64,000 nt of DNA. It comes from Cytauxzoon felis. Lineage: Eukaryota > Apicomplexa > Aconoidasida > Piroplasmida > Theileriidae. The stretch lies in assembly GCA_020283715.1 (NCBI GenBank), contig JAIQCW010000234.1, positions 1-64,000 of the forward strand. Direction: 5' to 3'. The notes under the pieces were generated by a model. The model had not been told where the DNA came from. It searched no databases and was given only the letters and a program-made list of their open reading frames with translations. Position numbers and translations under genes: made by a program. This document shows, piece by piece, positions 1 to 46,265 of the stretch. Position 1 is the first letter of the stretch. Each line of letters opens with the position of its first letter.

Positions 1-50
1 AAAACTAAATAGAAGAGGCGCCACGCCTAGTGGAAAGACCTCATTTGGAA
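1..50 (+). repeat. Palindromic repeat, 3' fragment, in exon
   Basis: R-core tail (AACTAAATAGAAGAGG), reversed pin A CCACGCCTAGTGG and a bracket variant. Cut by the window edge; translated in frame as part of the ATR-like protein. Confidence 0.8.
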
Positions 51-3000
51 TAGATGTTTCTAATAATAGATTGAGTTTGTTTAATTTCGTTCATTCGGAT
101 GATTTGTATAATTTTGTGGATGTATTGGAGTATCAATGTGAGTATATATATAATATATTTAGTATATATTTGGAAAAGTGTAATGATAATAGAATGATAA
201 ATGATGTATATAGTTTTATAGAGGATAATTTTATAAGGATATTAGATTTATTTATAACTGTATGGTTTAAAGATAAAGGTATGAATAGTATAATTAAAAA
301 AGGATATTTTATCCTGATATATTTTTATATAATGATAAATTAAGAGTTTATAATTGTATAGCTATATTAATGAAAATGTATAATGGATATTTAGATGTAT
401 ATTGTGATCGTATCATTGAAGTATTATTAATCTCTGAATCCATATCCGATACACTCTCATTATTACAATGCTGGCATATACTCTCCAATAAATTAAGCAA
501 TAATACTCTCTCCAAATACTACCCCGGAATCATCTATCATGTCATGAAACTTGAAACCAGCCGAAAATATAAAATGAAATCTAATCAACATGATGATATC
601 ACAACCGATAATTATACAACCTCTCCACCTGAGGTTACAACCACCTCATCTTCCACTAGGCGTGGAGCCTCTTCCAATTACCTATCCGTAAACGGTAGAG
701 CCACTCCCAGAGATCGTGGCGAAGAATCCGAGACGATCCATGGGAGTCGAGGGGAAGTAAATGAGAAGGCCACCACGGCGAGTGGAATGAAGAGTAGTAC
801 TGGACCTCGAGTGGAACCCGCAGCTGATCTCAGGGAAGCGGAGGGGGAAGTAAATAGAAGAGCTGACGGCAGGATGGACCTCAGGTGGAAAGACAAGGAA
901 AGGACCTCAGGTGGAATGGACAGTACTTCGTGTATTGATAATGATGTTTATAGATTGGTTGAGAGTATAATGATGGTGGATAGTAATGATGATATGGTGA
1001 TAAATAATAATTTGGAGTGTTATTCGATAATGTTGAGTGAGAATTATCCATATATAACAAAGGAATCATCAGCATTATCTGCATGTTATTTATTGAATAA
1101 GAATCCATTTATTATAAATAATAATATATTTAAATTGAATTCTATTAGATTAGCAAATTCAGCATTATTAATTATTAATGAATATTCTAATGATTTAAAT
1201 AAAAATCCCAACAATTTAACTATTTCATGTTGTAAAATATTGGGTTATATTAATTTTAATATTAAATTAATTAAAAGAAATATTAATTTAGATCTTATAT
1301 TAAATATTGATAATATATCAAGTGAATTATCTATTAAATTATTAATTAATTATCTTATACCCAATCTACATATACAAATTACACCATATTGTATACAAGA
1401 AATACTTAAATTCCTCAAATTACATTATACTACATCCGACCCCATAACATCTACAAATTGTTGGGATTTATTACCCCATGATATACAAATTAAATTAGAA
1501 CCATATAAGAAAACGAATTTTTTAAGAAATAAACAAATAGAATCTATAATAGAATCAAAATTAGAAGAAAATACAGTATTAGATATAAAATATCTTGTAT
1601 GGTGGTTATTAAAAATTATACCAAATACATGCCCAAATCTACAATTATATAAAGCTTGTGATCTAGCAATCATACAAATACCCTCAATCTTATCCTTCCT
1701 ACTACCACATATCATACACTCGTGTGTTATACACCTAACCACACAAGATTGTAATAAAATCGGTAAAAAAAATCGCAACACTATTATACAATACACTACA
1801 AAGAGATAGCAATACCTTTGGAATCAATTGGAAAACCACAAACACCACCAATCACAAATATACACATAATACACACAATCTACACACCACATGCCAAGTA
1901 TGTTGATACAAAAAATGAAGTTATCTCCACTCGAGGTTACAACCTTGTCATCCACTAGGCGTTCCACCTGAGGTCAGTCCTGCCGTCAGCTCTTCCAATT
2001 ACCTATCTCTAAAGAGAGAGCCACTCCCAGAGATCGTGGTGAAGGTAGTGATGGATCATCCATCATGGGAATGATGGAAGATGGTGCTAAGGATGTGTTG
2101 GATGTAACCTCAGGTGGAATACCCGTAGCTGATCTCAGGGAAGCGGAGGGGGAAGTAAATAGAGGAGGCATCCATGGCGAGTGGAAGACCTCGGGTATAA
2201 GTTGGAGAAGATAATGATTGGACCTCAAGTGGGGTGATCATTAATTGTTCATTTAATTTATTTATATATTATATTTTTTAGGCTATATTTAATTTGGTGG
2301 ATGAGTTGAAGTATTTTGTGGATCGTAATTCCCGTTTATTGGAGAAGTGTAAGGATGACGATGTGGAGATGATACATGACAATATAATGAAATTTAAATC
2401 GATATTGAATTGTATACCGGATTTATTGATAGCACATGCAGCTATATCATGTGGTTCATATGCTCGTGGTGTAATGATGATAGAATATCAATTAACATAT
2501 AATATATTATCATATGATTTTTCGAATCCATGTAATTCATTATGTAATATATCTAATTATAATACTGATGAATTTGAAATTATAAATTCATATGATATAA
2601 TATCATTATTATGTAGGGGTTATTATGGTTTATCAGAATTGGATATATTAATATGTATATGTAATTTAACAATAGATAAATATAATAATAATTTGTTGGG
2701 TAATAATATGATTTGTAGGGCATTTTCATTAGAATGTAAAGGACAATATAAAGAAGCTAATGAAATTTATAATAATTTATTAAAATCATCATATGATTAT
2801 AAATTATGGATCTCATGGTATCGTATTGTACAATTAGTTGGTCCTGATACATTTATAAAATTCCCTAAAATTAAAAATATATACGATAATGATGATCCAT
2901 TATATGCTGAAGCTATTACAGCATGTTGGAAATTATCATTATGGGATGAATTAGATTATATGTTAAATAAAAATGTTTTATTAGATATTAATACACCAAC

Positions 3001-6000
3001 CAATAAAAATATACATCATACACCATCACACATATCATCACTCAATTCATATCATTCATTACCTGGATTTATAATACCTCCTGTACGAAAACAAAATAAT
3101 AATGTCAATGATATGTTAACCATCCCACATATTACTAATTCACGTTCTATAAAAGGTCATACATCCTCTATCCAGACAGACAATAATGTAGGTGTTACAA
3201 TTGAGGTTACCTCCACAGAGATCCAATCCACATCTGTTCCACTCGCCACCACCGTTGGTCTTGCAGACAGCTCTTCTAATTTGCTATCCCCAAGGGCCAG
3301 AACCACTCCCAGAGATCGTGGTGAAGGTGTAGAGGATTGGACCTCAAGTGGAAAAAGATATAGATCCGCTTTAGATTATGACGGTAGAACGCCTAATAGT
3401 AAAGATATTGATAGGAATATCATCGATATTGAAATACCTGGGGATAATTATCCCCATGATATCAGAATCCCCCATATTTCGCCCCATAGTATTAAAATAC
3501 CCTCAGCTGATCTCAAGGAAACTAATGGGAAAGTAGTTAGAAGAAATATATTTAGAACGAATGAAATACCCTCAGTGGATATGGATTTATTTAATATAAA
3601 CTCACCGGAGATGACCATGTTATCTTGTAGGTCGTTATTATCTGATGCGACAACAAGTACCTTAGTGAAGGATGGACTATCAGATTTATTTTGGCCCACA
3701 TTATTGATGAAAGACTCAGTTGATGTTTGGTTTATGAATAGTATAGCACGATCACTTCTACTGATTGAAAAGAACGAGTATGATGAAAGTTTATTGATAA
3801 TTGATGATGGCTTAAAGAATCTTGTTCGACCATTAGGCCTAGCAATTAGAGAATCTATTGAAGTAGGATATAAATACTTGGAAAAAGTAACAATATTTAA
3901 CACCATAAGTATTATATTGGAATATTATAAAAATGGGGATTTTTCAGAAAGTGGGGAAATTAGTTTTGCACGTTCATTAATATCAAAGATAAGATTATTT
4001 ACTAATAATCATATAAATATATTAATAAATATATTGGGTATAGCAAAAGTAGTTTTAGAAATAGGTAATAAAATTATAGCCGCCACATATATTCTATTAT
4101 ATCTGAATAAAATATGTAGAGTAAATGATATAAATATTTATATACCCGGTTATATAACATTAAATCATATAATACAACCATTAAAATCTGATATTATATT
4201 AGAATATTCATTAACACTATATAAATCCGGTAATATCGAACAAGCTATCAATGAATTATCCAAAATTTCCGATACTAACCTCAATTGCCTCTATAATCTC
4301 ATAAAAATTTACTCCGAAACTAATCTCATCATACCCAAAGTTGCCGTCTCATATATGCATCAAATACTAGATATCTCACCCAAAAATTTCAAAGCCAATC
4401 TACTATATGCCAATTATCTCGATAAATTAATCGAATTCAGAATCAAAAATGCACAAAATATCAAAGTCGTCAATGAACATAATAAAAAAATACCAAACAA
4501 TAAAAATACCACACCCACACTCAGCGGAATCGATGGTATACCCGGTATTTTCACATTCATCCAACTCGTCACAATCACAATCTGCTCTTATCTACAAACA
4601 CTCAAATTCATCAATAATACACAAACAGATGATATGAAAAATACCACGTCCACCACTGTTCCACTCGCCTCCACCGAGGTCCAATCCGCATCTCTTCGTC
4701 CTGCTGTCAGCTCTTCTAATTTGTTATCTCTAAAGAGTAAATCCACTCCCGGAGATCGTGGCGGAGGTGGAGGTGTGGATGGAAAGGAGAGTAGGATTGG
4801 ACCTCAAGTGGAAGTGGAACCCGTAGCTGATCTCAGGGAAGCGAAGGGACAACTAAATAGAAGAGGCTGTCTGCAAGACAATATAAGGAAAATCCCCACA
4901 ACTAATACCGATAACAAAATTAAAGAAGATAAAATGGGGATATCTGGGGTTAAAAAACACTACAATCCGACTCAAACACATGATGGAAATAATAAACCAC
5001 AGAATTCTGTACCCTGTAGAACTAACAATGTCTACCCGGAGGAACGTGGTATATCTAATGGACCACAAGTGGAACCCGTAGCTGATCTCAGGGAAGCGAA
5101 GGGACAACTAAATAGAAAAGCCACCACGGCGAGTGGAATGACCTCAAGTGGAGGACAACACTTTGCTACTTCAGGTATTGAGTATGATGATAATATAATG
5201 GATGGTGATTATAATGATATGGACGATATGGATGACAGTATGGATATAATGGATATATTAACAAGGGTGATAACGATAATATGCTTTTATTGTACATCAA
5301 ATACTAAACAATTCTCATCGATTATACTAAATGATGACGTTTGTGAACTATTTTATAAAGTTTTAAATAAAAAATCAATAAATTCTCCAATATTTTCCCA
5401 TACTATTATTGGTACTCTGTACTCTCACAAGTCATCAGTAGATGCCAACATAAACTTCTAGGTACCACAATTTTCCAACCAATCATCGCCAAACTTACCA
5501 CACTCTACCCAAAACATACACTATGGTCAACAATGTACTTTGCACACTCATTATCAAGTATGTTTATACACATAAATTAAGCAACTCTTTCCAATGTCCA
5601 CTCGAGGTCCATCCTGCCGTCAGCTCTTCCACTCGCCGTGGAGGCCTCTTCTAATTGCCTATCTCTAAAGAGTATTGCCACTCCCGGAGATCGTGGCGAA
5701 TGTGTAGTAGATGTAACCTCAGGTGGAGAACGCGAAAGTGATCTCTGGGAACTTGAGGGGGAAGTAAATAGAGAAGCTGACGGCAGGACTGACTTCAGGC
5801 GGACAAGTACAGACCTCAATTGTAGCAGCTATTGCATTCTATATATATTTCTTTAGGTAAATGTCGTCAGACTCATAAGAATATAATGGAGTTGATTGGT
5901 GGTATGGGTAGTGATGTAATGTGTGTGATTGATAGTTATGATTGTATATTTCGTGAGATGCATAAGGTAGCTATGAATAGTGATATTTCATTATCTGAGA

Positions 6001-7214: not shown

Positions 7215-7249
7215 TCTAATGTAATTTTAATATTCATTTGAATTTATAT

Positions 7250-8104
7250 TTATAGTAGTAGAATACATGATGAATTACCTTTAACAGCATTAAGTTCAGT
7301 TTTAAGTCTACCAAGATCACCTTGAGCTGGACTTTCTGGATTTATATTCTGAAGACCAGTATCTTCCTTCCATTCATTCCCTCTCGTATAATATTTCCAA
7401 CTACTACTAAACTTAACACAAACGATTAATGGGAATTCATGCTTAGTTACGTCACTAGTATGGTAATATACATAAACTGCTTTAACATCTGAAGTTTGAC
7501 CACCAGATTCTACTACACCCTTTAATTCCTGATCATTATGTTTAACTGAATTTAATGTGAATGTAGTAGTAGTAGCAGTATGCTTATATCTCACATAATC
7601 ATTTGGTACAGGATTACTAGTAGCCGCGCCAACCTTCTTTTCAACAATAATTCGTTTCTTACATCCATAAGGTTTAGTCTTATCAACTTTAATCTCAACC
7701 TCATTTTCAATTTTTGTAACAATAGCATTAAGTTCTTTATCAGTAGCACCTGTGATAGGTGTAGTTTCTTGATTTTTCCATTGGCTAGTTGACTGACTAG
7801 TGTCGGTGTTATAAAATATTTTATCACCATCCATAGCCTTAACCTTTAAAGCTCCTTTATTAGCGGTGTTCTTATAATAATACACTTCATAGACATCCGA
7901 AATATTACCTCCATCCAATGTACCGGTTTTACCAGTATCGTGAGTAATTGTTGCGTTCAATGTGAATTTCCCTCCAGCTGCTAATGAGTGGATGTAGAAG
8001 TTGAAATTAGAAACATCTCTCATTCTGGTAACTTTCATCTTATCACTTTCATAATATGCAGTTTGACCTACAGGAAGGTCAGCTCCTACCAAGGGTATTG
8101 TCAT
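7250..8104 (-). CDS. FAINT (DUF529)-like family protein, Theileria equi-type
   Basis: 284 residues with two related halves, each showing a FAINT-like pattern: a YKH or IHS start, FTLN, then VYVYYH or VYEVYYYK, a hydrophobic strand and a WKYY or tryptophan/lysine end. The wording (RYKHTATTTTFTLN, then ELKG, VYYH, WKYYTRGNEWKED) resembles the expanded Theileria equi-type family as I recall it. Such proteins are normally exported, but no signal peptide is visible after the start at 8104 (MTIPLVGADLPVG), so a first exon may be missing, or the protein is cytosolic. The C-terminus NSSCILLL is hydrophobic. The next gene upstream (8380-9240) is another family member on the same strand. Function unknown. 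Confidence 0.6.
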   Translation of the reverse strand: MTIPLVGADLPVGQTAYYESDKMKVTRMRDVSNFNFYIHSLAAGGKFTLNATITHDTGKTGTLDGGNISDVYEVYYYKNTANKGALKVKAMDGDKIFYNTDTSQSTSQWKNQETTPITGATDKELNAIVTKIENEVEIKVDKTKPYGCKKRIIVEKKVGAATSNPVPNDYVRYKHTATTTTFTLNSVKHNDQELKGVVESGGQTSDVKAVYVYYHTSDVTKHEFPLIVCVKFSSSWKYYTRGNEWKEDTGLQNINPESPAQGDLGRLKTELNAVKGNSSCILLL

Positions 8105-8379
8105 TAGGTAATATATAAATGATAAAAAACACTACAACTATCCGTTTGTCTCATATCTAATAATAATACTAACTATATATACTTCTATAAAATTATTAAA
8201 ATATTACACTTCAGTTATAAGTGTCAAATTACAGTCAATTATGTTACAGCTGTCTTCATATGACATTTAAAGTGTAATATTGTACAGATGTTTAAATCAT
8301 GGGAAATATCCCATTACGTTTTAGAGTTGTCATCTACTTTTATGTTAAACATTGAAGTATGTTGTTTGTCTTCATATTA

Positions 8380-9240
8380 TTAACTTCCAGAAGATTCTGA
8401 TTTAGCTTTTGTATCTTCAGCTAATTTTTTCAATCTGGCATCAAAATTTTCCTTTGAAATCATCTCAAAACAGTTACTGCTGTTCAATCCATAGTAAAAT
8501 ATCTTCATTTCTTTTGGATATTTTACATGTAATATTACTAAAGATGATACAGTTGGAGAAGAATAATAAACCTTGATATAATAGCATCCGCATACATAAT
8601 CTAGTAGTCTCCAAACCTGATTACCATTACCCTTAACCCTGATAATTCTAGTATTATCATCAACCGTAAATATATTTGAAAGTAACCAAGGTTCCTTTTC
8701 TTCAGTTCTTGTAACACCTTCAGGAACAGTTTTTTTTAAATCTATTTCAATTTCATGCGACTTTTTCTTCCCTTCCTTAACATATGCAACATATGCCTCA
8801 AATTCTACTTCCCTTACAATTTTTTCACCCTCCTTCAAGAGTTTGATCAGATATCCAACAATACCTTCATTAACTCTTTTCCATTCATTGTCAACGAGAA
8901 AGTAAGTTACCTCACCATTACTACAAAACCCATCTGAATATACCAAAGATACTATTATAGGTTCGTAGTCAGTAGATTTATTGGATTTAACCTCTATATA
9001 TTTGAACTTTTCATCTTCTTTAGGTTCATAAATCACTTTATTACCATCTACGAATTTACCAACTTTATACTTATTATTTGGTTTAATTTTATATATCACC
9101 ATAAAATTTTCCTCTCTATTAGTTACTTTAACTTGGTCTGTTTCCTCCCTTGTACGTATGTCCAAATCTACCGGTGTCTTGTTGGCTGCGATTGATTTAT
9201 ATTGACATAATATGATGACGATAAACGGAAGAATATACAT
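8380..9240 (-). CDS. Secreted FAINT (DUF529)-like protein
   Basis: 286 residues. The N-terminus MYILPFIVIILCQYKSIAA is a good signal peptide with a cleavage site near residue 19. Two FAINT-like segments follow, around residues 20-130 and 150-270, recognisable by alternating charged strands and the motifs VIYEPKEDEKFKYIEV and MKIFYYG. The charged tail DTKAKSESSGS has no membrane anchor or ER-retention signal, so export is likely. In Theileria, FAINT proteins are secreted into the host cell; the precise role of this one is unknown. ATG at 9238-9240 is the only start that keeps the signal peptide. Confidence 0.7.
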   Translation of the reverse strand: MYILPFIVIILCQYKSIAANKTPVDLDIRTREETDQVKVTNREENFMVIYKIKPNNKYKVGKFVDGNKVIYEPKEDEKFKYIEVKSNKSTDYEPIIVSLVYSDGFCSNGEVTYFLVDNEWKRVNEGIVGYLIKLLKEGEKIVREVEFEAYVAYVKEGKKKSHEIEIDLKKTVPEGVTRTEEKEPWLLSNIFTVDDNTRIIRVKGNGNQVWRLLDYVCGCYYIKVYYSSPTVSSLVILHVKYPKEMKIFYYGLNSSNCFEMISKENFDARLKKLAEDTKAKSESSGS

Positions 9241-10074
9241 GTTGTAAATGCGATGACAAATGATTGGGCTGCTGATATATTTATAAATGTATCGTCATAC
9301 TAGTGATGGAATGCGATGTTTTGTGGTTTGTATAAGACACCTACAACAACAGGCAAATAATTTAAGAATATATAGAATGAGAGTATAAGGTATATGTATG
9401 CAGTGGTATTAAAACGACAATGTTAAATTACACAAAACAACATCACAACATATTATATGGCATCGATTTATCGGAGATATTAATTCCTGGAAACTTAACA
9501 CCAATAATGGGGCATTTGCATAAATAATTACCGAGGTGACTCATGGTAGCCGAGGTGTATGAAAAAGGAATAGCTCTCTTCAAGAGTATATATAACATGT
9601 AATTCTGTACTGAAACTACGGGCTATATAGACCATGTGTTGATATATTAAGATATATCGTAATAATGCTATATTTTTCAATAATTGCGTAGCATTGCATT
9701 TGAAGTTAGTATTATGATATCTTGACTGCCATTACCCATATTAACTCTGCCTGTGTCACGTATATCCCTCATTCCGGCAAATACTTGTGATAAAATGAAA
9801 CTCAAAGATATAAACATAACAGTAACTGATGCCAATTATGAGTATTACAATTTTACACAAATATATGAAAGAAGTAACAGTGCTAATACAGTTACTGGTG
9901 CTCAAACTAATACTGATCCTTCCAGTACTGTTCCCGGTGGTACTAAAAAAATTACCAACAATAGTGTTACTGCTGGTAATCATTCCCAGAAAAATATACA
10001 ATACATAAGCTAAATATACAAGAGACACTAAAACAGAGAAAATTGGAGATGATTTAAAAATTAGATTAATTTAT
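9241..10074. other. Intergenic region, 834 bases
   Basis: AT-rich spacer between the FAINT-like gene and the SNIP1-like gene, both on the minus strand. Around 9753-10028 both strands are open but neither frame looks like a known protein. No palindromic repeat occurs here, unlike most spacers in the window. Confidence 0.5.
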
Positions 10075-12226: not shown

Positions 12227-12453
12227 TTTTATACCGAATATTACATGTTAAATTAAATTATAATCATTACTGCAATAAATGTGCGCTTAGGTACTACATG
12301 CCTAGTAGTAATCACTTTCTCAATGTGTATATGTGACCCACACATTTTCATCGACGAGGTCGAAAATGTCTAAACTAAACTCATGATTTATAGTTAATAT
12401 TTAATAAAGACTAGAGGAAATATGATTTTTTCAAAAAGAATTTGGATATTAAA

Positions 12454-14613: not shown

Positions 14614-14679
14614 TCGCACTCTTAATCAATCCCTAATCTCATACTCTTTATCATTCATATTTATCACTCTCTTCGTCCT

Positions 14680-15294: not shown

Positions 15295-16106
15295 TTATAG
15301 GAAAATAAGACCGAATGTAAAACCAGTAATAACACCTGATGTAGCAGATGATAATTGTGATTCAGTTAATGAATTACATAAAAATGTATTGAAAAATCTC
15401 ATTTTATTAACCTCATAAAAATCATTCAATGATTTCATAAAACCATTAGATGATTCAAAATGATCTTTCATATAATTACATATCTTATCCCAATCAACCT
15501 TTATATAACCATACTTATTCGTCAACTATAATAATTATATCAAACATAATCATAAATGAACCGATATCCACTCGAGGCCCAATCCACTCCACCTGAGGTT
15601 ACAACCACCGTTGGTCTTGCAGACAGCTCTTCCAATTACCTATCCCTGAAGGGTAGAGCCACTCCCAGAGATCGTGGCGAAGATAAGGAGGATAAGGATA
15701 TGACTTCAAGTGGAAGTGGACTACCTGGAAGCGATCTACGGGAGCTGGAAGGGGAACTAAATAGAAGAGCTGACGGCAGGACTGACCTCGGGTGGAAGTA
15801 TAGTTGGATTGGACATCGGATGGATTAGTTTCAGTATTTAAAATCATTATTATTTTGTTTATAACTTACCATGAGTAGGCAAATACCACCGGATGCGGAT
15901 AGGAAAATGGCTCGTATAGTTTTGGTAACGACTAGACTTAATCCGGCTCCGAATGCTAAACCACCGATAAATGACGATAGACAGAATTCATGTGATGATT
16001 TAGAGAATCCAAATAATTTACCAACGAAACATTCTACAGTTTTTGAATTTTTCTCTTCAGAATTCATTTCTTCTGGTCCTTCAGCTGTTTTATTTGAATT
16101 TTTCAT
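15295..16106 (-). CDS. FUN14-domain protein (FUNDC family), mitochondrial outer membrane
   Basis: Two exons, 16106-15870 and 15525-15295, in phase, give 155 residues. Exon 1 encodes hydrophobic Gly/Ala-rich segments (FIGGLAFGAGLSLVVTK, AIFLSASGGICLLMV). Exon 2 starts with GYIKVDWDKI, the diagnostic block of FUN14 proteins, and ends with the third hydrophobic segment GVITGFTFGLIFL. Animal members are mitophagy receptors; the role in piroplasms is not known. The charged N-terminus (SNKTAEGPEEMNSEEKNSK) shows no obvious LC3-interacting motif. The intron 15526-15869 (GTAAGT...TATAG) holds a repeat antisense to the gene. Confidence 0.85.
15568..15823 (+). repeat. Palindromic repeat, full unit, in intron of FUN14 gene
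   Basis: Antisense to its host. R-core is the GCGATCTACGGGAGCTGG form. It is almost a copy of the reversed unit at 19961-20192, down to the linker GATAAGGAGGATAAGGATA. Confidence 0.9.
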
Positions 16107-20771: not shown

Positions 20772-20781
20772 TTAACCATTG

Positions 20782-31806: not shown

Positions 31807-32066
31807 TTTGAAGAATGCTATATATATATATGATTATAAATATATAAAATTTTTTCCTAAATCATAGCTCCTCAATGTAGATCACCCATCATTCATGTGC
31901 TGTGATGTATATAGGTGGTGATGTGAGTAATAGTATGAAACGATTTCTAGTGTATAAGATGGTAATAACTTTAAAAATTTTCCTGTCTTGACTTGTATAA
32001 TAACTAAAAATGTTAAATGTGTAGTTGATAATGTGACGATTCAGTGACCAGAGTTACGAATGTAAG

Positions 32067-35000
32067 ATGTTACAGTATATTGTACATCAATTAATCAAGG
32101 CATTTGGTAAAGATGTATTGGAGCAATGGATACCTTTGGATAGGATATGTATAACATCGATAACAGATCCTGAAATACATTTGTCTAATATACCTGTACC
32201 TGATATACTATTCCAGACTTATTCACTGCCATTCGCAATTGTAAAGTCTAACATCTCAAGAGTAGTGATTAAATGTCCATGGACTTCATTTTTTAAAAAG
32301 TTTGAGAAGGACACATTAAAAATTGACATAGATGTTGTTGAACTGGTATTACGCATTAAGCAGTTGGATGAGTTGAGCGAGTCTTCATGCAGAGAACTAT
32401 ATATTAGTAGCAAGGCCAAGAAGCTGTCAAAGTGGTTAAAGGCTAAATCGTCGATAAAGTTATTGAATAGAGCAAATAATAGCCGCAATAATGTACAAAA
32501 AATACTAAATGCTCTAAACATTGAAATCAAGAGAATAGAAATTACATTAATTGACGATTTACTATATAAAACACCATTTTCAGTGATCATCAAAGGCAAT
32601 AATATCAAAGGGAATGGAATCGATCCAAATGATAGGAAATCGAATGAAAATTGGATTAATGATAACGACGTACGCGGACTCTCAAAGTCACTCTTAACCG
32701 CATTATCGTTTCACTCCGATGACGTTAGTATATACTTTATAGAGTATAGAACCCAAACTAGAAATGTTACTAAGTCATCGTCTACCGAATGTTCATACAC
32801 CTCCACTAGTCATGCAGATCCACCTGAAGCTGTAACCTTGTCTTCCACTAGGCGTGGAGCCTCCTCCAATTACCTCCCCATAAACGGTAGATCCACTCCC
32901 GGAGATCGTGGCAAAGGAGAGGGTAGTGAGGTAACCTCAAGTGGAATACCTGGAAGCGATCCACGGGAGCTGGAAGGGAAAGTAAATAGAAGAGCTGACG
33001 GCAGGACTGACCTCAGGTGGAAAGACGAGGAAAGGATCCAAAGTGAAAGAGAAGATAGGGTTGATATCTCATTGGATGGACGTATAAGTCGTGACACTTC
33101 ATCGGATGATGTATTTTATTCTCCATTATCGTCGGAAGATGAAATTTATCTTGGTAGTGAAGATGTGAATGTACTGTTAGATGTGAAGAGTAGTGTATTT
33201 TGTTCATATTGTACTGTTGGATGTTGTGATTATGGTAGTGACAAAATCGATTATGAGAAGTTGAACATAAAGAGTGATGCTTATAGATATTTATCTTTGC
33301 TTAAATTACCATGTAATGTATATAAATTGACCCCAGATTTGGGTATAAAATTGGATATTGTGTTTAAATTTTGGTCTATTAATAGTTTATTTGTTAATGA
33401 TATAAGGCATGATTCATATCGTGATTTGTATATTGTATTATCATCTAATAGTGAAAAAACCCCATTGAAATTAACTTTTACGAGTACTAGTGTGATATGT
33501 TTGTACAATTTGATACGTTTTATGCAGATATTATCCTCATTTAAGGGGATGTCTTTATTTGATTTAAATAAAACACCCAATATTGAAGATTCCATTAAAT
33601 ATATAAAATTAATTAACACTCGTAGTATATTAAAATCCCCATCTAATGATGACTTGGAATTCATTAAAAAATTTTGAAGAATCTACCCCATTAAGTATAA
33701 TCATTAAATTAAGAGAATTGTCTACAACTCATAAGTGGAATAGTAATGTACATGAATTTTTATTCGGTTCATGCTGCGATTTTGATAAATGTGGGGGTAG
33801 TGGTAATGTGGGGAAAGATGAAATTAATCTCTTGGATCATAGCCACTGGTTTACAAGCGAATTTAACATGCATATAATCATACCTGATGTCGAATTTCAT
33901 ATTATTGCATTGGAAAATATGAAGTCTCATAGAGGACCTGAATGTGATGAACAGAGTGCACGATCTAATCGTAGATGGAAGCGAAGACGTGAAAGTAGAA
34001 TTGATGAACCCTCAGGATCTCATAACACTACTACAGCTTCCATACACCCTTCCTTTGTCATCAAGTCAAGCGTATTCCTTTTGAAGTCATCAACATTTCT
34101 ACCAAAGAGGTACACTATGGGGATTAATTTCATCAGGCCTATAATCACATTAGGTACAGTCAACCTCGATTCTAAAATTAATGAAAATAAAACATTCATC
34201 AACTTTTACATCAATAATTATAATAATACCCTATTTATTTACCCCGACATTATGTTCAATAATGCATCACAATTTTTTAATGAATATGGGGTTTTTTATC
34301 ATGATAAACTGGATGAAGATGTGGGGTTAAGGATTGTGATTAATGAGTATAGAAATTTTGTAAAGTATATATTGATAGATGTACCTAATATAAATATAAT
34401 ATTATCATCATTGATAAATTACCTTGAGGATTTTAATAAAGGGTTATTAATAAGTATAATGAATGATCTGTTGACTCTAAATATGTTAAATTGTAGGGTT
34501 AAATTACACCACATAAATAATGATACTGTTATTATGAAGATGATAGATTGGGCTAAGTATAGTAATAGAAGTATAACTAAGTTACCATTAGTGGATATCA
34601 ACATCAAGTTGTTTATATCGACAGATAGTTCAATCGGTACAGATGATGAATTCAATTTCGATAATGCAAACGATATCTACGGTATCAATGATGAAATTCT
34701 CAATAAATGGGAATACTGCCATGATATCATAGACCCATTTGAATCCAAAAATACATCCAAAACACATTCTATTGATGATCCAACATTGTCTTCCACCAAG
34801 AATACCACCGTTCCACCTGAGGTCCAATCCAACTCTGTTCCACTCGCCTCCACCGTTGGTCTTGCAGACAGCTCTCCACCTGAGATTACAACCTCTGATC
34901 CCACTAGGCGTGGAGCCTCTCCCAATCACCTATCTCTAAAGAGTAGAGCCACTCCCGGAGATCGTGGCGGAAGTGAGGATGTATCCTCAAGTGGAATACC

Positions 35001-38000
35001 CGCAGCTGATCTCAGGGAAGCGGAGGGGGAACTAAGTAGAGAGAGCCTCCACGGCGAGTGGAAAGACATCGGTGGTGAAGCTGACGGTAGGACGACCTCA
35101 GGTAGTACATCAAGTGGAATGGATGTGGATAGGGCCTTACGTGGAGGAAATAATACATCTGTGATGGACTCTACATATAATATGGATATGATTAGGGTAT
35201 GGTATAGGAACACATGTAGATTGAGACGTAAATATGATTATGATCCCATGGTTTTGGTATTTGATTCTATTGAATATTTTTATGATGGCTTTGGTGATAT
35301 TGATATTAAATTTAACGATTTTAGGCTTAAGTTCAATAATTCTATTGATATATTCATTGTTAATAATTTCCAATTTTTAAAATCTAATAATATGAGGCGA
35401 TGTAGGGTAAATTATCTCTTGTTTACGGTGTATGATAAATTTATTAATATATTATTAAAATATAATAATCTAATGTCATCAATATTATATGATATTATGG
35501 GGTTATTTAACCGCATACGGTATGTGATTGATCAATTAATAAGGATAAAACGTATACCTATTAAATTAGATGATGATGGTACGGAATTATTCAAATGTCT
35601 AACATTTCATGATTTAGATATTAACAGTATAAAAAACCCCATAATTGTTAAAAATGCGGGTGATGGGGATATATTATTGGTGAAGTTGAAGAAGATGATA
35701 ATATATTATTTGAATGAGTATGTATATATAACGCGTTTTTATAATATTAAATTTGAAATTATAAAAAATGATGAAATTAAGACATTATTACTAAATATTA
35801 ATGACGCGCGCGTCATTAAATTTATAAATTCAGCTGATAATAATAAGCGCGTCATTCTTACAAATAATCTCAATACACTCAAAAATAATAAGATCATACC
35901 CAACAATACAAATCAAAACCAAATTAATATCGAATACCAACTCTCAAACACCAATAAAAATATCAAAATTGATATCAGAAAATTACATATACTCCTAGAT
36001 CTACAATACACAATACTCACCATCAAATTCATACAAAATCTCATTAATACAATAAAACCATTTGAACATATCAAAACAAGCAATATAATAAACAATTCAT
36101 CCTCCACTACATCCGAATTTACCTCTACCGTTCCACTCGCCTCCACCGAGGTCCAATCTACCTCTCCTTGTCTTGCAGACAGCTCTTCCAATTACCTATC
36201 TCTAAAGAGTAGAGCCACTCCCGGAGATCGTGGCGAAGGTAGTGAGGATGTAACCTCAAGTGGAGTACCCGCAGCTTATCTCAGGGAAGCGAAGGGGGAA
36301 CTAAATAGAAGAGCTGACGGCAGGACGACCTCAGGTAGATCGGCGAGTGGAAGAGATGAAGGTAATGATCGTGATGTTCCTTCTGTTAAGATGAGTATGA
36401 TATTATATGATATATCTGTAAATTATGATGGTATGGGTTTGAGATTTGAGATGTATAGTATATTTGAATTGGTATATGATCCAATGAACATAATATTGGA
36501 TATGCCTAGGGTTCATGTTACATTAATCAATGATTATGTTTATAATTTATTGACATTTTGTATATTAAATATGAAATTAAATTCAGATATATTTTTCGAT
36601 TTCAATTTATATGATAATACTAATTTAATTATCGATCTTAAATGTAGCCATTGTGCATTATGGGGTTATGATTATATAAATAATGGGGTTGATGGAAATG
36701 AAATTGATAATGGGGGTAAGAATATTTATATGAATAAGGATCCTTATAATTTATTATTGGGTTTATTAAATGAGGATTGGTATAGTCAATTAACTCATGC
36801 ATTATTACCATCATGTATAGATAAAAATACAATATTGATACCAATAATATTAACACATATACCAAAATGTGTAAGATTGATACCATTATTAAATAAACAA
36901 TGGATCACTAATTGGTTATCACGTAATTATCCCCATATTAATTTAAATTATGGGGAAATTGCAAATAAAATTATAAATAATATTAAATTTAATAAAAATA
37001 TTAATAAACGAGATTCAATTACAATTAAAATACAATCAAAAATCATTAATAATATTAAATATATTACAGGTAATATCAATATCAACGACTATATAATCTC
37101 ATTACACCCTAGCATTATTGTCAAATATATCAACACCATTTCTAAAACTACATTACATAAATTAGAACATGATCTCAAACTTATCAAAAAATATATCAAA
37201 TATATAAAAAAATCATATAAATACAACCAAGTAAATTTTAATGAATCTACCATTCAAAGGTATAAAACCACAGATACATTATCCACCATCAGATCCCTGT
37301 CCAGCGCCATCTCTATTCCACCTGAGGTCCAATCCGCCTCGCGTTCTCTTGCAGAGAGTTCTCCACCTGAGGTCAGTCCTGCCGTCAGCTCTTCTCCACT
37401 TGAGGTCCAATCCAACTCTCCTTCTCTTGCAGAGAGCTCTTTTAATTCACTCCCCGTAAACGGTAAAGCCACTCCCAGAGATCGTGGCAAAGAATCCGAG
37501 ACGATCAATGGGAGTCGAGGGGAAGTAAATAGAGAAGCTGTCTGCAAGACGACCTCAGGTGGAACGGCGAGTGGAATGAAGAGTAGTACTGGACCTCGAG
37601 TGGAACCCGTAGCTGATCTCAGGGAAGCGAAGGGACAACTAAATAGAGAAGACACCACGCCTAGTGGGAAGACCTCAAGTGGAGAAGCTGTCTGCAAGAC
37701 GACCTCAGGTGGAACATTGGGTGTAGAGGGTTTGGTGGTGGATATATTATTGAATATAGAGGAGGTGGATATGATGATACCTTATAGATGTGATATAATG
37801 TTGGAGAATAGTGTACCAATTAGTATGTTACCTGAGGATATATATATTATGAATAGATATTATAAGAGACCTAATGATGATATGAATGATTATAAGATAT
37901 TATGTATATTACAATTGGATAGATTATATTCGAAATTTTCATTTAAATCAAATATAATAGGTCAATATTGTATAAATAATATTAATGAATTATATAATAT

Positions 38001-41000
38001 TAATAATATAATTATAAATATATTTAAATATCAAAAATAGTATAAAATTTTTTAATGATAATATAAATGGTGTATATAATTATTGGATATTTACAAATTT
38101 ATGTAAAAATTAAATATAGATTTATATATAATAAGATTAGATGAAGATAATTTATTAATTGGTTTAATAAATATAAATGATTTAAATATTGATTTATGTT
38201 ATAAAAGTAATAATAAATGTAAAATTAATTTAACTATAAATCGTTTAGAAATATTTAATAATAATAATCAATTTATTATAAAAAATATATATAAAATACG
38301 AAAATTATTTAAAAATTCATTAAATTATAATAAAAATCAAATTATAATAAATATTTTAATTAATAATAATATTATTAATATTAATTCTATTATAAATCAT
38401 ACAAGATGTCTAATTTATCCTAATCTTATACAATCATTATTACAATTCAATTATTCTCATAATAATACACATATCAAATATCATAATAATAAAATTATCA
38501 ATTTTACCTCATCATTCAATATGCTCGAAATCTGGATACATCCATCCAATATTATACATAACCATTATAATAAATCCGAAATTATATACAACTATACTCC
38601 ATATGAGGTCCAATCCAACTCTTCTCACACTTCCACCCGAGGTCCAATCACTACCTTCACCTCTTCCACTCGGCGTGGAGCCTCTTCTAATTTGTTATCC
38701 CTAAAGGGTAGTGCCACTCCCGGAGATCGTGGCGGAGGCGATGATGGGGTAATGGGGGATAGTGGGGGTAAAAAACACTATAATTATGATCTACCCCATG
38801 AATTAGATAATAAACCCCATTGTGTTCCCCATACTTTTTCAAATGGAACAGAGGATGTAACCTCGAGTGGACAACCCGTAGCTGATCTCAGGGAAGCGGA
38901 GGGGGAGATAAACAAAGGAGCTGACGGCAGGATGACCTCAAGTGGAATGTCTAGTGGCAACAGTAGGACTGTAACTTCAGGTGGAAGTGGACAATATTTT
39001 ATTTCATCTCGTAGGATGAATATATTGAATAAATTACGTTTATTGGAGTTTAGTATGAAGAGGGATGGTATGGGTGTATTGCCTAAGATAATAAATGATG
39101 CTGATATGATTGATAATGGACTAACGGATTATGATGATAGAAGAGATTATAATGATGATGTTAATGTTATTGGTATAATGATGGATATAACTTGTAATTA
39201 TTCCAATAATAAAACATCAAATATAATATTGAAATATTTTGGTATCGCATTAGGAATAATTAAATATATCAATAATATCGATATACTTGTCGATTATAAA
39301 GATAATTTTCTATTTATAAATTATGGTGATGGGGATAAAGATAATAGTGATTGTGGGGTTAACAATCATTTATTGATGGAATTATATGATGCATGTTTGA
39401 AGATGAAGAGAGTAGATAATGGACATTTATTAATATCGATAGAATTAAATAATATAAAAGTATCATTAAGATTAGATAATATTGTACAATTAATACAATA
39501 TAAAGAATTTTTTAATGAAATTATAAATAAATTTTATAAAAAAAATATACCAAACAACAATATGAAGGTGATATCAATGATTTCATTAATCATATCCAAT
39601 CAATCTATAACAAATATGGTATCAATGTCAATATCCTTTCCGATGATGATATCAAATTAAAACACTTTAATATCAACACCATGAATCATAACAGTAAAAG
39701 AAAATCAAATCTTAATAATCATCCACAATTTAACTCTACTCCACCCGAGGTCCAATCCAACTCCTCTCCACTCGCCGTGGAGGCCTCTTCCAATTACCTA
39801 TCTCTAAAGAGTAATGCCACTCCCGGAGATCGTGGCGAAGGTGATGGAAGTAGGGTTAAGAATGTAACCTCAAGTGGAGAAAATGGGGGTTATGGGGATA
39901 AAAAACCTCATAATGACAATAAACCCCATGATTCATATGTGGCACGATGTGGAGGTGATGAGTACATGACCTCAAGTGGAAGTGGAGAACCCGCAGCTGA
40001 TCTCAGGGAAGCGGAGGGGGAGGTAATTAAAAAAGCTGACGGCAGGACCTCGAGTAGAGGTGACTGTAAGACTTCAGATATTGGATACTTTGATGATGAT
40101 AAATCTTTGATTAATAATTCTGGTACGAGTATATTTTATGAATTGATATCATTATTTGATATATTGTATGATTTATATTATAATAGTAAGGATGAATTGA
40201 CGATATCTGTATATATAAAGGATATTAGATTATTATTATATTCATTTGTAAATGAATTATCATTATGTATTAATATTCAATATTGTAAATCAGATTTAAC
40301 ATTATGTAGAATAATTAATGATAATTTAAGATATAAATTAGTACCTAAATTAATATTTGATTATTCATTAATATTTAATATACAATTATTAAATTCTAAT
40401 TTAAATACTCAAGATTATATTTTAAAAAATACTGTTATTACTATAAAAATTTTATATGAAAATAATATAAATTCTTTATCAATTAATATTGGTATAAGTA
40501 GTATTACTCTTGAATTAAGTACATCATTATTAAAATTTATACAATATATTACATCAATACTACCCATCATCAATCTCAATTATAATCGATACACCACCAA
40601 AAATATCTATACCATCTATAATGAACTCGAATATGATGTCAATCTATTCGTCAATCGCAAAAATAAAATAATATTCAAACTTAAAAATCATCCACAATAT
40701 AACCCTACTCCACTTGAGGTTACAACCTCTCCACCTGAGGTCCAATCCAACTCTTCTCCCACTCGCCGTGGTGGCTCTTCTAATTTGTTATCTCTAAAGA
40801 GTAATGCCACTCCCAGAGATCGTGGAGAAGGTGAAGGTATTGATGGATCATCCATCATGGGAATGATGGAAGATGGTGCTAAGGATCTGTTGGATGTAAC
40901 CTCAAGTGGAAAACCCGAAAGCGATCTACGGGAGCTTGAGGGGGAAGTAAATAGAGAAGCTGACGGCAGGACTGACTTCAAGTGGAAAGGCCGTCTGCAA

Positions 41001-44000
41001 GACAAAGAAAAGGTGGATAAAACTTTAGGTGGTGATGAATTGGTGATGATACCGAGTGGTATGTGTACTAGAGTGTATAGTGGTGAATTTTTGTTATTTT
41101 TGCGTAGTAATGGTATGATTGGTGAGGGTGTAATGAATGAGATGATGGGTGATGATTATATGAATGATGAGTATAAGAATTTATTATTTGGTAATAGTAA
41201 TAATGTAAAGATGTTGATGGGGATATTAAGGGATGATAGATGTATGGATGAGATAACAGATATGGGATTGAGGGAAATGATGTATAATGATCCATCATTG
41301 ATGTATATTGGTAATTATGTTGATATAATAAGATTATATAATATACCTAATAAAGGTAATATATTATTAGTTGAACCATATGTAAATGATGAAGATGATA
41401 ATATAAATATAATAATTAGTACAAATATACGTATTATTAATAATACTAATATTACATTTTTATTAACACAAGATTTTAAATTAAATTATTTTAATAAATT
41501 AGCATATAAATTATTACAAAAAGATCAACCAAATGATACATATAATAAATATCTATATATTAATCCACTCACTTCTATATCTATACCAATTTCTTGGTAT
41601 AATAATGGATATATGCCCGTCATTACCCCCATATTTGATGGGGTTGGTGGAAATTATGGTGGTGATGATGAAGAAGATAATTCATTAGATTTTCAAGAAT
41701 TATATAAATTATTAAATAAACAAAATATAATAAATAATGAAGAAAATCAACAACAAGATTTAAATAAAATTGAATTTAATTTAAATTTTAAAAATTGTTT
41801 ATCATTTAAATGTAATATTATACAACAAGAAATTAATAAAATAGATAATCAACATGATATCATATCATATAAATATCTTATTTATATCAACCCCATTATT
41901 AATATTATTAATAATCTACCATTTAATCTTACCATAAATATCTCTAAAAATAAAACAAATATTATCAATCATAAAATACTTAAACCTAATGAAACATGGG
42001 GATTACCATTCGGTGAACAAAAATTCTATATGAAAATTAAAATCAATGGATGCCAACTCGAATGTACACAAATAAATAAACAATACTATACAAAAAATTA
42101 TCATTATAAAGGAAATTATCCACACTACTTGAAACAATCTCAATCAAATACTTACTCACATGAAATACAATCAAACGAAAAATATACAAAATCTCCACAC
42201 GAGGTCCAATCCAACTCTTCTTACACTCTACCGTTCATTCGTCCTGCAGACAGATCTCCACCAGAGGTTGGTCCTGCCGTCAGCTCTCCTAATTACCTAT
42301 CTCTAAAGAGCAGAACCACTCCCGGAGATCGTGGCGAAGAATCCGAGACGATCCATGGGAGTCGAGGGGAGGTAAATAGAGAGGCCACCACGGCGAGTGG
42401 AATGAAGAGTAGGATTGGACCTCTAGTGGAACCCGTAGCTGATCTCAGGGAAGCTGAGGGACAACTAAATAGAAGAGCTGACGGCAGGACGACCTCAGGT
42501 GGATTGGACCTCAAGTGGTATGGTCGTAATATTCCTTCGAGTAGTATGTTAGAGTATGTATCACCGATGATGTATATATATATACCAAATGTTGGTGTGA
42601 CATCGATGGTGAAATTGTTGCGTTATATGGATGGTCCATTAGATGAGATTATTGGGTTATTTTATGAGATGATATTACAGAGTGTGAATGATTATTATAA
42701 AAACTATGAAATATTATATGAATATATGAAGAGGATGTATATAACTATAGATATAACTAGGAATACTATAAAAATAAGTTGGCCTTATATATTTGAAAAT
42801 ATAACAACAAATTTTATATTATTAAATAATTATTTAATACCACCTGGTTATAGATTCTATGGTAATCTACATGATGCATATAATACAAAATTAAGAGCAT
42901 TTATAAATCTAGGAAATAAAATATATCTTCATACAAATCAATCATCTAAATTAGATCTTACACAAACTACACAATTAAGACCACCCATCAATCTTAATGT
43001 ACCATTCACTCAAATCAAAAAATATATCATACAAGATAATATCGATAATAACCATCACAAACAATTTCATGAACCTAATACAAATACCAATGATACATCA
43101 TCCACCGAAAGTTATACAAAATCTCCACTTGAGGTCCAATCCAACTCTCTTCGTCCTGCGGACAGCTCTTCCAATTACCTATCTCTAAAGAGTATAGCCA
43201 CTCCCGGAGATCGTGGTGAAGTTAGTGATGGATCATCCATCATGGGAATGATGGAAGATGGTGCTAAGGTGGAGATAAGGATTGGACCTCAGGTGGAACC
43301 CGTAGCTGATCTCAGGGAAGCGAAGGGAGAAGTAAATAGAAGAGCTGTCCGCAGGACGACGAAAGTTGGAGGTAATGTTGCTAAGGATGTGTTGGATGTA
43401 ACCTCAGGTGGAGAAGATGGGGTAAAAATGGGTTATGGGGATAATAAACCCCATATTTCTAATCATCCTCATAATGCAATAAATAACATGACCCCTGGTG
43501 GAAAGGAAGTGGATGGTACTTTGGGTGATGTATCATTGGTTGATGATGGTGTATTATTGATGGGGTATGATAAATTGCGTAGATTGAAGAGGCGTGTGAT
43601 GCGTATAATAGATGATAATGATGAGAAGAATAAATTATTATCGATGATGAATATGGGATCTATATCAGAAGATGATAGATTGAGACAGGATGATAGGGGT
43701 GTGAGTATATGTATAGGTTGTAGTGTTCGTTATATAGATAATGGTATAAGGGTTATATCAATTGGTAATTTATATACATTTGTAAATAATTTACCATTTA
43801 CTATATGTATAGTTGGTGTACCAGGTGATATAAATAATATAATAGAATTTAATTGTAATAATAATTTAATAAAAGATTTAATATTAAAACCAGGTGAAAT
43901 GAATAATTTTAATACCCCATATAGTCATGCATATATAATAAAATTAGAAAATACAATGTATAGTGGTAGTTTTCCATTAATAACATCACATATACCTAAT

Positions 44001-46265
44001 GTTATACAATTAGAATTAAATTCATTATCAATTGTATATACAACAATGGTAACACGTGGTATATTAATACAAATTGATATAATAACAGGTAATTTTAATA
44101 ATAATAAATTACCATATATATATAATGGTTATTATTATATTTTATCTATACCAAATAAACCACAATATCAAATATTAAATTTAACATCATATAATATATC
44201 ATTTACTATACCAGATAATATTAAAACTATTGAAGCACAAATGGTTGATAATTATGATACATATGATAATTTTGAAACAAATTTAATTAATAAAATAAAT
44301 ATATTATCACCATTTTGTATTACACATTATGTACCCAATAATATTATTTATAAAAATCTTAATCAACATCAAGTTGCATTAAAAATACTTAATGTAAATA
44401 ATTGTGATTGGTTTATACAAAAATTCTCATTTATTAATAATAATATAAATACCATTAAATTAAATCATAATAATACCATATATACCAATGTCATCATTAG
44501 ACACTCTGGTACTATTATCATCATACTCTCCGATAATCTCAATGTCATACAAGATATTAATACACAACATCTCAAATTCAATTGGAACTCTATACTATTC
44601 AATCTCAAACTACCCAAAATCTCAATCACCATCGCTAATAAAAGAAAAATCTTCCTCGCACTTCATCTCACCAATATACAATCATACCTCAAAATAATAC
44701 CCAAATTCAATACAAACTCACGAAATATCGAAACTAATTATAATAATATACCCGAAGATTATACAACCACTGATTCCACTAGGCGTCCACCTAAAGTTAC
44801 AACCTTGTCTTCCACTAGCCGTTCCACCGTTGGTCTTGCAGACAGCTCTCCTAATTACCTATCCCTAAATGGTGGAGCCACTCCCGGAGATCGTGGCAGT
44901 GAGGAGACATGGATTGGACCTCAAGTGGAAGTGGAACCCGTAGCTGATCTCAGGGAAGCGAAGGGGGAAGTAATTAAAAGAGCTGACGGCAGGACCAAGG
45001 GTGGAGGTGACTGGAAAACCTGTGGTGGTGTATGGAATGGTGAGTGTGATGGTTGGGTGATAGAGACATCGACGATAATAAAGATGGTTCATGTGGATCA
45101 TTTTGTTCAAGGTTATATACCGGTAATACTGAAGAGTTTGGCTAAGCGTCATTCAAGGCAGGAGTCATTTTTACAGGTTAGGATTGTATGTATATTGAGT
45201 CCGAAATCATTACCGATATATGATTCGATATATATAAAGACATCACCTTTATCAATAAATGTAGAGATGCGTGTTTTAGAGCAGTTGTTTGATTATATTG
45301 AGATGATTAAGTTACAATCTGATGGTAATGATAAACAAGATTATGATTATTCTTTACAATCTAGGGGTATTGCATTACCTGAGCCTAGATGGATAGATAC
45401 TAAAAGTAGATTACCAGTATATATAATGAAGTTTAATATTGAGCCGATCAATCTAGTATTGGCTATACGTACTAGTGAAGTTAAATTATCCAGACAAACT
45501 TTACAATTATTGGATTCATTACCATTAGATACTCCATCAGTATGTGTACATTTTGCATCTGAGAAGAGGAATCATACAATATTATGTTGGAATGAATTAG
45601 TACAATCACTAAAGCATTCATATTTACGTCAATTGATAAGACAATCATTACCTAGTGCATGGTTATCAAGTTCATTTGCATTATTACATGGTGTTATAAA
45701 GGGTACATGTTTATTATTTTCACAACCATTTGTATCATGTAACAAATTTAAAAATTCATTTGAAGGTTTTATATTGGGTATAGGTAATGGGATTATATTA
45801 TTTATTTTATATATATTCGGTGGACTTGCACAAAGTCTTGGTCATGTATTAAATATATTTCATAAACTTATGGGTAGAGGTAGACCTAGACCACAAAGTA
45901 TATTAGATGCATTATGGTTGGGTATTAATGGTTTATTATTAGATTTATTCTTTAGACCATGGAAAAGATTAATATCAGATTTTAGGAAATCACATGGCAA
46001 AGGTGATTCAAAAACTAAAATTGGATGGAAATTAATTTCAAATTTAACAAAATGTATTCTGTGCCCTATAATTGGTATTGTAAATATGTTAATTACTATT
46101 GTTGAAGGTCTATCTAATGTATTATTAGGAGACTTCGAACAATTCACACACGTTTATGAAAGTGATCAATTGGGAAATCTTTTACAAACTGTGGATGATA
46201 AAGATAAACAACCAACAACTTTCATCAAGAGAATGAAGACAGCCACATTACGTAAATTCACCTAA
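32067..46265 (+). CDS. VPS13: VPS13 family bridge-like lipid-transfer protein, with ten in-frame repeat insertions
   Basis: Giant gene, about 4,700 residues in four frame blocks (32067-33677, 33646-38040, about 38120-39660, 39681-46265). Residues 1-120 are a Chorein_N domain (VHQLIKAFGKDVLEQW, LSNIPVPDILFQTYSLPF). The last 300 residues carry the conserved VPS13 end: SFALLHGVIKGTCLLF, GFILGIGNGIILFILY, GGLAQSLGHV, DALWLGINGLLLDLFFRPW. The middle is the long beta-groove region plus the adaptor-binding domain. The protein family moves phospholipids between membranes at contact sites. Blocks join by one-base changes at A-runs near 33665, 38032, 38107 and 39540. Ten repeat copies (roughly 1,000 residues) interrupt it at about 1-1.5 kb spacing, all sense and in frame. 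Family members are usually 3,000-4,000 residues. Confidence 0.88.
32820..33020 (+). repeat. Palindromic repeat in VPS13 exon, copy 1
   Basis: Full unit; R-core of the GCGATCCACGGGAGCTGG form. L-core has AAACGGTAGATCC instead of AAGAGTAGAGCC. Confidence 0.9.
34812..35117 (+). repeat. Palindromic repeat in VPS13 exon, copy 2
   Basis: Full unit with a doubled left side: bracket, pin A, pin B, bracket, pin A, L-core. Confidence 0.9.
36131..36350 (+). repeat. Palindromic repeat in VPS13 exon, copy 3
   Basis: Compact full unit; pin B in the CTTGCAGACAG form on the left and CTGACGGCAG on the right. Confidence 0.9.
37318..37712 (+). repeat. Palindromic repeat in VPS13 exon, copy 4
   Basis: Longest VPS13 copy: triple left side, ETINGSRGE cargo, and a right half with two pin B modules. 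Confidence 0.9.
38599..38983 (+). repeat. Palindromic repeat in VPS13 exon, copy 5
   Basis: Full unit with about 100 bases of cargo between the cores, rich in CCCCAT and ATGGGG boxes that are themselves inverted. Confidence 0.9.
39740..40060 (+). repeat. Palindromic repeat in VPS13 exon, copy 6
   Basis: Full unit carrying the TATGGGGATAA ... AAACCCCATG cargo also seen in copies 5 and 9. Confidence 0.9.
40711..40985 (+). repeat. Palindromic repeat in VPS13 exon, copy 7
   Basis: Full unit with the CATCATGGGAATGATGG cargo and an R-core of the GCGATCTACGGGAGCTTG form. Confidence 0.9.
42194..42518 (+). repeat. Palindromic repeat in VPS13 exon, copy 8
   Basis: Full unit with the ETIHGSRGE cargo; pin B appears in both forms on the left side. 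Confidence 0.9.
43124..43503 (+). repeat. Palindromic repeat in VPS13 exon, copy 9
   Basis: Full unit with two cargo types: CATCATGGGAATGATGG between the cores, and the ATGGGGATAATAAACCCCAT type after the right half. Confidence 0.9.
44776..45006 (+). repeat. Palindromic repeat in VPS13 exon, copy 10
   Basis: Full unit just upstream of the conserved C-terminal region; no copy lies inside that region itself. Confidence 0.9.

Follow-up and report, generated by a model that had tools for sequence, protein, structure and literature searches.

The first 64,000 nucleotides of contig JAIQCW010000234.1 from the nuclear genome of Cytauxzoon felis (the window, C136:1-64000 in our contig numbering; GC 32%) carry a family of short palindromic repeats, 19 of which lie inside coding exons, all in the sense orientation of the host gene and all read in one frame. 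The explanation that best accounts for our results, to which we assign a probability of roughly three in four, is that these repeats form a non-autonomous palindromic family whose exonic copies are survivors of a filter for a tolerable open frame and are translated. The evidence comes from counts of orientation, frame, spacing and stop codons, taken against noncoding copies of the same family.

The genome comprises 8,623,106 bases in 181 contigs, and the repeats were sampled in the window, in two further contig stretches (C9:1-120000 and C4:1-80000) and at 25 further loci. These loci were picked by resemblance to an exonic copy, so totals from the three contig stretches are less biased. The repeats were tracked by two core motifs, A and B, counted 186 and 240 times in the full sample; raw matches in the window numbered 37 for A and 49 for B (44 once overlaps were removed). 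The repeat-derived share of the sequence in the three contig stretches is 15.9%, 16.7% and 9.7%; together they hold 181 element intervals in 264 kb, and extrapolation from this figure gives perhaps 5,000–6,000 copies genome-wide. GC-richer 11-mers occurring at least 10 times numbered 553, versus 0 in one Markov-random sequence. A window protein with a FAINT domain (PF04385) and relatives of the window's CCCH zinc-finger protein in Babesia and Theileria indicate, from sequence, that the host organism is a piroplasm.

Openness cannot be tested on copies that were classed as exonic for being open, so the repeat letters were hidden from a three-periodic coding model during training, and the model was allowed a free change of frame across each hidden stretch. 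An element was then counted as exonic when both segments flanking its interval were coding in the same frame. Among the 248 element intervals classed, 58 were flanked in this way, and all 58 were sense (0 antisense). Noncoding intervals in the whole sample were balanced (68 plus, 66 minus, 11 mixed), as were intervals at exon edges (17 sense, 17 antisense, 2 mixed), in keeping, at least in kind, with the even orientation that the initial annotation had reported for intronic copies. In the window alone, 22 of 22 same-frame-flanked masked intervals were sense, with 3 sense and 2 antisense at exon edges. Joining elements split by the mask (3234 with 3497, 38604 with 38851, 39740 with 39967) reduces these 22 to 19, two of them consisting of motif B only (5031, 13705); the earlier count of 19 exonic copies, all sense and in one frame, is thereby recovered by a model blind to the repeats, with every copy open in that frame, including the copy in a minus-strand host gene (16419–16758). 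The pattern extends past the window. Same-frame-flanked copies in the C9 and C4 stretches were sense in 18 of 18 cases, beside noncoding copies at 44 plus, 40 minus and 6 mixed and exon-edge copies at 9 sense, 11 antisense and 2 mixed, and the three contig stretches together gave 40 sense and 0 antisense.

Of the nine remaining intervals, five had flanks in different frames on one strand (3 antisense, 2 sense) and four had short flanks (3 sense, 1 antisense). Two antisense copies with different-frame flanks (C9:24613 and C9:109433) are located between GT and AG sites that are plausible by eye, and a third interval with such flanks (C4:52611) is a 25-nt fragment. The two sense copies are open into the right flank and frameshifted at the left, perhaps through assembly error.

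The same-frame-flanked copies keep the host frame in 47 of 48 instances of motif A and 55 of 56 instances of motif B, and stops occur in one of 58. That copy (C9:113993) lies between GT and AG sites judged plausible by eye and is best read as intronic. The distance between A and B is divisible by three in 41 of 42 exonic copies versus 48 of 106 noncoding ones (Fisher p=3e-10), and reading in the A frame is uninterrupted through B in 42 of 42 versus 40 of 106. Such constraint on frame, stops and length is expected of translated sequence and not of sequence that is spliced out or skipped, so translation is strongly implied; an intron or a segment bypassed by the ribosome would be free of frame or stop constraint, and the exonic copies are not. 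The earlier suggestion that these copies are translated therefore holds at the level of sequence statistics: they behave as translated segments, with the host frame kept, without stops, and in or beside conserved enzyme domains.

Domain placement is visible for a few elements only, since 18 of the 33 open reading frames (ORFs) given to Pfam were without a match. In a VPS34-type kinase domain, one element sits between residues that align to yeast Vps34 positions 696 and 712; no VPS34 relatives were found at E 1e-20 among 8000 candidates scored. A bacterial-type leucyl-tRNA synthetase frame holds two elements, one of them directly after the conserved RQRYWGEP, and a CAF1/PARN-type nuclease domain carries one element within one frame and another within the next. 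The elements are thus present in frame inside conserved protein genes, as Rickettsia palindromic elements (RPEs) are. The element peptide was found in none of 144 candidate proteins at E 0.01, a search in which proteins of 0.55–1.75 times the query length were findable.

How much of the orientation is explained by stop codons? The initial annotation had put the chance of 19 sense copies in 19 at 2^-19. That figure is invalid, because it treats orientation and frame as free when stops shut most alternative readings, and orientation as a fair coin is accordingly rejected. Read from A to B, 33 of 42 exonic copies are open in just one of the six frames (8 are open in two and 1 in three), so most have a single readable orientation; among 106 noncoding copies, 48 have no open frame, 45 one and 13 two. 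Over whole intervals, the open frames of 102 noncoding A+B copies comprise 24 sense (all in the peptide frame) and 10 antisense, and those of exonic A+B copies 38 sense and 4 antisense. When fragments are included (168 noncoding copies), the figures approach balance at 62 sense and 51 antisense, largely owing to B-only fragments, many of which can be read in antisense (20 sense, 32 antisense); loss of A from fragments may have followed insertion, in which case their orientation is inherited.

On these figures, stops alone would leave room for 10–29% antisense; among the 57 open exonic copies there are 0. Under the noncoding A+B model (29% antisense), this absence has p=2e-9, with 1e-6 for 0 of 39 in the three contig stretches and 0.003 for 0 of 17 outside the window; under the exonic A+B model (4:38), the corresponding values are 0.003, 0.02 and 0.18. 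Stops as the whole explanation were dropped, given an antisense absence beyond the stop-based expectation (p=2e-9 or 0.003): they account for the frame and for a large part of the orientation, and a further factor is likely. A plausible proposal for this second filter is poorer tolerance of the antisense peptide, which is more hydrophobic. Mean hydropathy is 0.01 for 62 antisense-readable frames versus -0.78 for 116 sense frames, and -0.35 versus -0.73 in noncoding A+B copies only (p=0.003).

The density of elements is 0.274 per kb in exons (40 in 146.0 kb) versus 1.71 per kb in noncoding sequence (137 in 80.0 kb), a ratio of 0.160 (rough range 0.11–0.23 by hand). This is near 1/6 and would fit it if every copy arrived with one open frame, on the assumption that copies were fresher on arrival. 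Among dinucleotide shuffles of the A–B stretch, 42% contain one or more open frames; no special cause is therefore required for that of the core.

Residue-level selection, tested three ways, found no overall support. The ratio of synonymous to nonsynonymous differences for motif A is 40:84 in exonic versus 75:227 in noncoding copies (p=0.12); for motif B it is 65:114 versus 220:260 (p=0.03, in the opposite direction); and for pooled rare variants it is 7:19 versus 20:46 (p=0.80). The initial annotation had proposed selection for a tolerated peptide. Conservation of its residues finds no backing in these ratios, which lack any synonymous excess, and tolerance of the sense over the antisense peptide receives some, from the rarity of antisense copies relative to what stops predict and from the greater hydrophobicity of the antisense-readable peptide. 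The sense peptide is hydrophilic (mean hydropathy -0.86 versus -0.29 for host sequence) and rich in disorder-promoting residues (63% versus 38% in host). Its letters follow the palindrome. Positions 20 and 27 of motif A are paired in 99% of copies versus 62% expected, and positions 10 and 24 of motif B in 98% versus 60%; the covarying arms, read by eye, are CTC/GAG, CCC/GGG and CCG/CGG in A and GCT/AGC, AGC/GCT and GAC/GTC in B, and the peptide shifts along with them through SLKS, SLKG, SVNG and PVNG.

Interchangeable mini-palindromes flank the core on both sides in mirror order, p-s-h-c ... c'-h'-p'-s' (75 elements). The elements thus have terminal inverted repeats of the sort carried by miniature inverted-repeat transposable elements (MITEs), but imperfect ones, and by eye their two ends carry different module types. 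On folding they form long stems, with sense-strand mean z of -2.7 for 31 exonic and -4.6 for 95 noncoding copies. A function of one RNA strand was considered and rejected: folding is similar on the two strands (noncoding copies, paired p=0.37), and exonic copies fold slightly better antisense (p=0.019). Mobility is inferred from copy number. Over 130 elements there was no clear duplicated flank of 2–8 nt beyond shuffled pairs (best z ~2 over all offsets), and the ends are diffuse enough that a target-site duplication could be missed. Transposase profiles PF01797, PF13358 and PF10551 gave no match in the genome (positive controls detected), and PF05699, PF13843 and PF14214 gave none either, but with their controls silent too. 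RVT_1 was reported at one genome locus, G000:C56:73693-74436, within a 1010-aa open frame that is perhaps telomerase. A second repeated unit, which reads like PLRTGNLPGxTKNVNPEEQ, is nested in the linkers of several elements, at ~4990–5060 of the window and at C9:28719-29104, C9:30409-30742 and C9:117459-117825.

We propose that a family of ~200–300-nt imperfect inverted repeats, with interchangeable mini-palindromes around the A/B core and no known protein of its own, would have entered the genome without orientation preference, as the balanced noncoding and exon-edge copies suggest. The core would happen to carry one long open frame. Intronic and intergenic copies would persist both ways while their lengths drift. 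In exons, a copy would persist only if it lacks stops and does not disturb the host frame, conditions that in most cases single out the sense reading in that one frame. The few copies readable in antisense, whose peptide is more hydrophobic, would probably be removed by a second filter. The survivors would be translated as hydrophilic, probably disordered inserts of ~20–130 residues, with exonic selection acting on a tolerable open frame rather than on single residues and with palindromic pairing kept family-wide. Several results weigh against this account. Neither a target-site duplication nor a transposase was found; stops alone do not yield zero antisense copies, so that an extra filter or an orientation bias is needed, and the hydrophobicity filter stands as a proposal; the open frames of today's noncoding copies fall below one in six (34 of 612 for A+B copies, 113 of 1008 for all); motif A, unlike motif B (p=0.17), is less variable at second codon positions in exons (p=0.012); and the covariation counts include subfamily descent, with no correction.

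Two of these points also suit the alternative of a beneficial insert peptide, or of selection on its residues, under which sense copies in frame would have been favoured and not merely tolerated: the reduced second-position variation of motif A, and the scarcity of antisense copies relative to what stops alone predict, to which may be added the single peptide frame of nearly all exonic copies. Against this, motif A, motif B and the pooled rare variants show no synonymous excess, exonic density is not above 1/6 of the noncoding density, and the peptide changes wherever the palindrome changes; we regard this alternative as unlikely. Insertion into coding sequence might instead be orientation-biased, for example through mRNA or an R-loop. 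This would account for the missing antisense-readable copies, and strand-asymmetric flanks (below) hint at opened DNA around elements, but exon-edge copies are split 17 to 17 and the flanking asymmetry is nearly independent of element strand, which makes such a bias improbable as well.

That exonic copies are spliced from the message or skipped by the ribosome, and hence not translated, would agree with the strong folding expected of element RNA and with the plausible GT and AG sites around some copies, and stop-free introns of 3n length may be used part of the time. Removal or skipping would, however, give no reason for 57 of 58 copies to be stop-free or for the contrasts in open A-to-B reading and 3n spacing with noncoding copies (40 of 106 and 48 of 106, respectively, against 41 of 42 exonic copies for spacing), and we consider it very improbable. 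Circularity, in which copies are called exonic for being open and sense, can affect any annotation that relies on open frames, such as the initial one. It is scarcely credible for a model that scored no repeat letters, permitted free frame change and still returned 58 sense to 0 antisense in the same frame.

Eukaryotic MITEs are short, have inverted repeats, reach high copy number and lack coding capacity for transposition. The Cytauxzoon elements share these traits and differ in that no target-site duplication or transposase was found and in their apparent translation inside exons. The review PMC2229807 describes RPEs as 105–146 bp long with long stem-loops, 19 intragenic insertions and one translated, active guanylate kinase. 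The elements described here are likewise palindromic, on a scale of 100–200 nt, present between and inside genes, and in frame in conserved proteins; unlike RPEs, they occupy a piroplasm nuclear genome, probably in thousands of copies, occur in introns, are built of modular mini-palindromes and have a flanking strand-asymmetry footprint. The comparison with RPEs transposed to a nuclear genome, drawn in the initial annotation, thus seems apt as an analogy, one of description and not of sequence. The same review reports the 107-bp form of the Neisseria Correia/NEMIS element, which has open frames, in genes and the 155-bp form, with stops in all frames, almost exclusively between genes; it lists target-site duplications for Correia/NEMIS, RU-1 and RU-2 and a question mark for RU-3 and RPE. 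Among bacterial MITEs whose frames are open (the 107-bp Correia/NEMIS form and RU-1/2/3), the Neisseria pair thus shows the same kind of filter as the Cytauxzoon elements, for which, unlike for Correia/NEMIS, RU-1 and RU-2, no target-site duplication was found. Yeast mitochondrial GC clusters, according to PMC4478555, are GC-rich palindromic mobile elements with conserved stems, for which merger and shuffling of palindromes have been proposed. They resemble the present elements in these respects and differ in being mitochondrial, mostly intergenic and short (GC42 is ~42 nt, judging from its name and that text).

Protein-coding palindromic repeats have been described from bacteria, and archaeal repeats fused into protein genes are also mentioned, in PMC2229807. 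No prior description of the Cytauxzoon repeats was found in the literature searched, which included part of PMC3748084 and covered few subscription papers. For Cytauxzoon felis, PMC3748084 reports 962 EST contigs. The outcome known from bacterial coding palindromes would here recur in a nuclear genome with introns, in perhaps 5,000–6,000 copies, where exonic survival is measurable with the family's own noncoding copies as reference. Should the sample be representative, more than 1,000 copies lie in coding exons, which matters for the annotation of this parasite's proteins.

The elements are also surrounded by a strand-asymmetric footprint in host sequence. GC skew to the left and right of elements is -0.30 and +0.32 within 100 nt and -0.18 and +0.20 at 100–200 nt, falling to ~0 by 300–400 nt, versus values between -0.04 and +0.10 around random points. 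The skew is nearly independent of element strand and persists under a wider mask. The mean contrast over 181 elements is 0.472, with 167 positive (null mean ~0, SD 0.028 over 1000 circular shifts). Four-fold sites in exons show the same sign, with -0.81 and -0.82 at 50–150 nt to the left and +0.69 and +0.54 at 50–150 nt to the right. A sawtooth with elements at minus-to-plus switches is present in all three sampled contigs; in the coding stretch at 38000–46400, six elements lie at switches from C-rich (left) to G-rich (right). Counting unique peaks in 150-nt bins, elements coincide with 0 of 36 opposite-sign skew peaks of at least 0.8 and with 3 of 159 of at least 0.5. Contrast rises with interval length (rho 0.32) and is uncorrelated with element score (rho 0.09, p=0.37), giving no sign of age dependence.

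The composition suggests A to G and C to T changes on the strand running 5' to 3' away from the element, on both sides. A tentative reading, which we hold at somewhat less than even odds, is that each element marks a point of repeated outward two-way DNA opening, by which the outward 5'-to-3' strand gains G and T through these changes over 200–300 nt in exons and noncoding sequence; an initiation site, an R-loop pair, or a hairpin-induced break and its repair are candidate routes. Elements may instead settle at pre-existing switch points. Switches more than 100 nt from any element make up 14 of 52 unique peaks at the 0.8 threshold and 77 of 183 at the 0.5 threshold, and two inspected, 41635 (41600–41660) and 34273 (34200–34330), both contain CCCC...GGGG near-palindromes; because some switches lack an element, skew caused by elements is not yet separable from site preference. 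If outward opening is true, a mobile palindrome would act as a coding insert and, at the same time, as a local mutagen altering codon and amino-acid usage nearby. The footprint offers a natural experiment on mutagenesis of single-stranded DNA.

The exonic elements of the window are on the plus strand except where stated. The ATR-like gene holds four: 621–918 (A+B, exon ORF 298–1809), 3234–3544 (A at 3270 and a decayed B at 3497, exon ORF 2282–5461), 4656–4881 (A+B) and 5031–5153 (B only). ORF 12415–14613, called a membrane protein in the initial annotation and without a Pfam match, holds 12629–12881 (A+B), 13304–13601 (A+B) and 13705–13836 (B only), and the minus-strand element at 16419–16758 (A+B+B) lies in ORF 16292–17524, called VHS and likewise without a Pfam match. 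The CCCH zinc-finger ORF 30484–31806 contains a diverged A+B element (31324–31501) in a segment lacking conservation across 14 aligned piroplasm relatives, which prevents an empty site from being defined. An A+B element at 32819–33022 lies in ORF 32037–33677, called VPS13 and without a Pfam match. ORF 33634–38040 holds three A+B elements, 34786–35103, 36130–36354 (the query of the genome search) and 37315–37715 (with three PPEV/PLEV-type end modules), and ORF 38107–39660 holds one, 38604–38991, in which A and B are parted by a longer linker. The remaining five are in ORF 39540–46265: 39740–40055 (A and B split) and, each A+B, 40708–41005, 42200–42518, 43122–43349 and 44774–44996. Beyond the window, the FAINT-domain ORF C9:21640-23271 also contains an exonic element.

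Four exon-edge copies of the window are likewise placed, all on the plus strand. Two are sense, at 1925–2232 (in a likely intron between two ATR-like exons, its A core short by 2 nt) and 5597–5793 (preceding the kinase-domain exon), and two are antisense to minus-strand genes, at 15567–15814 and 17580–17830. Minus-strand ORFs at 8383–9294 (FAINT, PF04385) and 7253–8131 (without a Pfam match) resemble piroplasm secreted proteins. An Rfam scan at gathering thresholds, which gave zero matches at elements, matched plasmodium_snoR20, a C/D-box snoRNA, at 56350–56434 on the minus strand.

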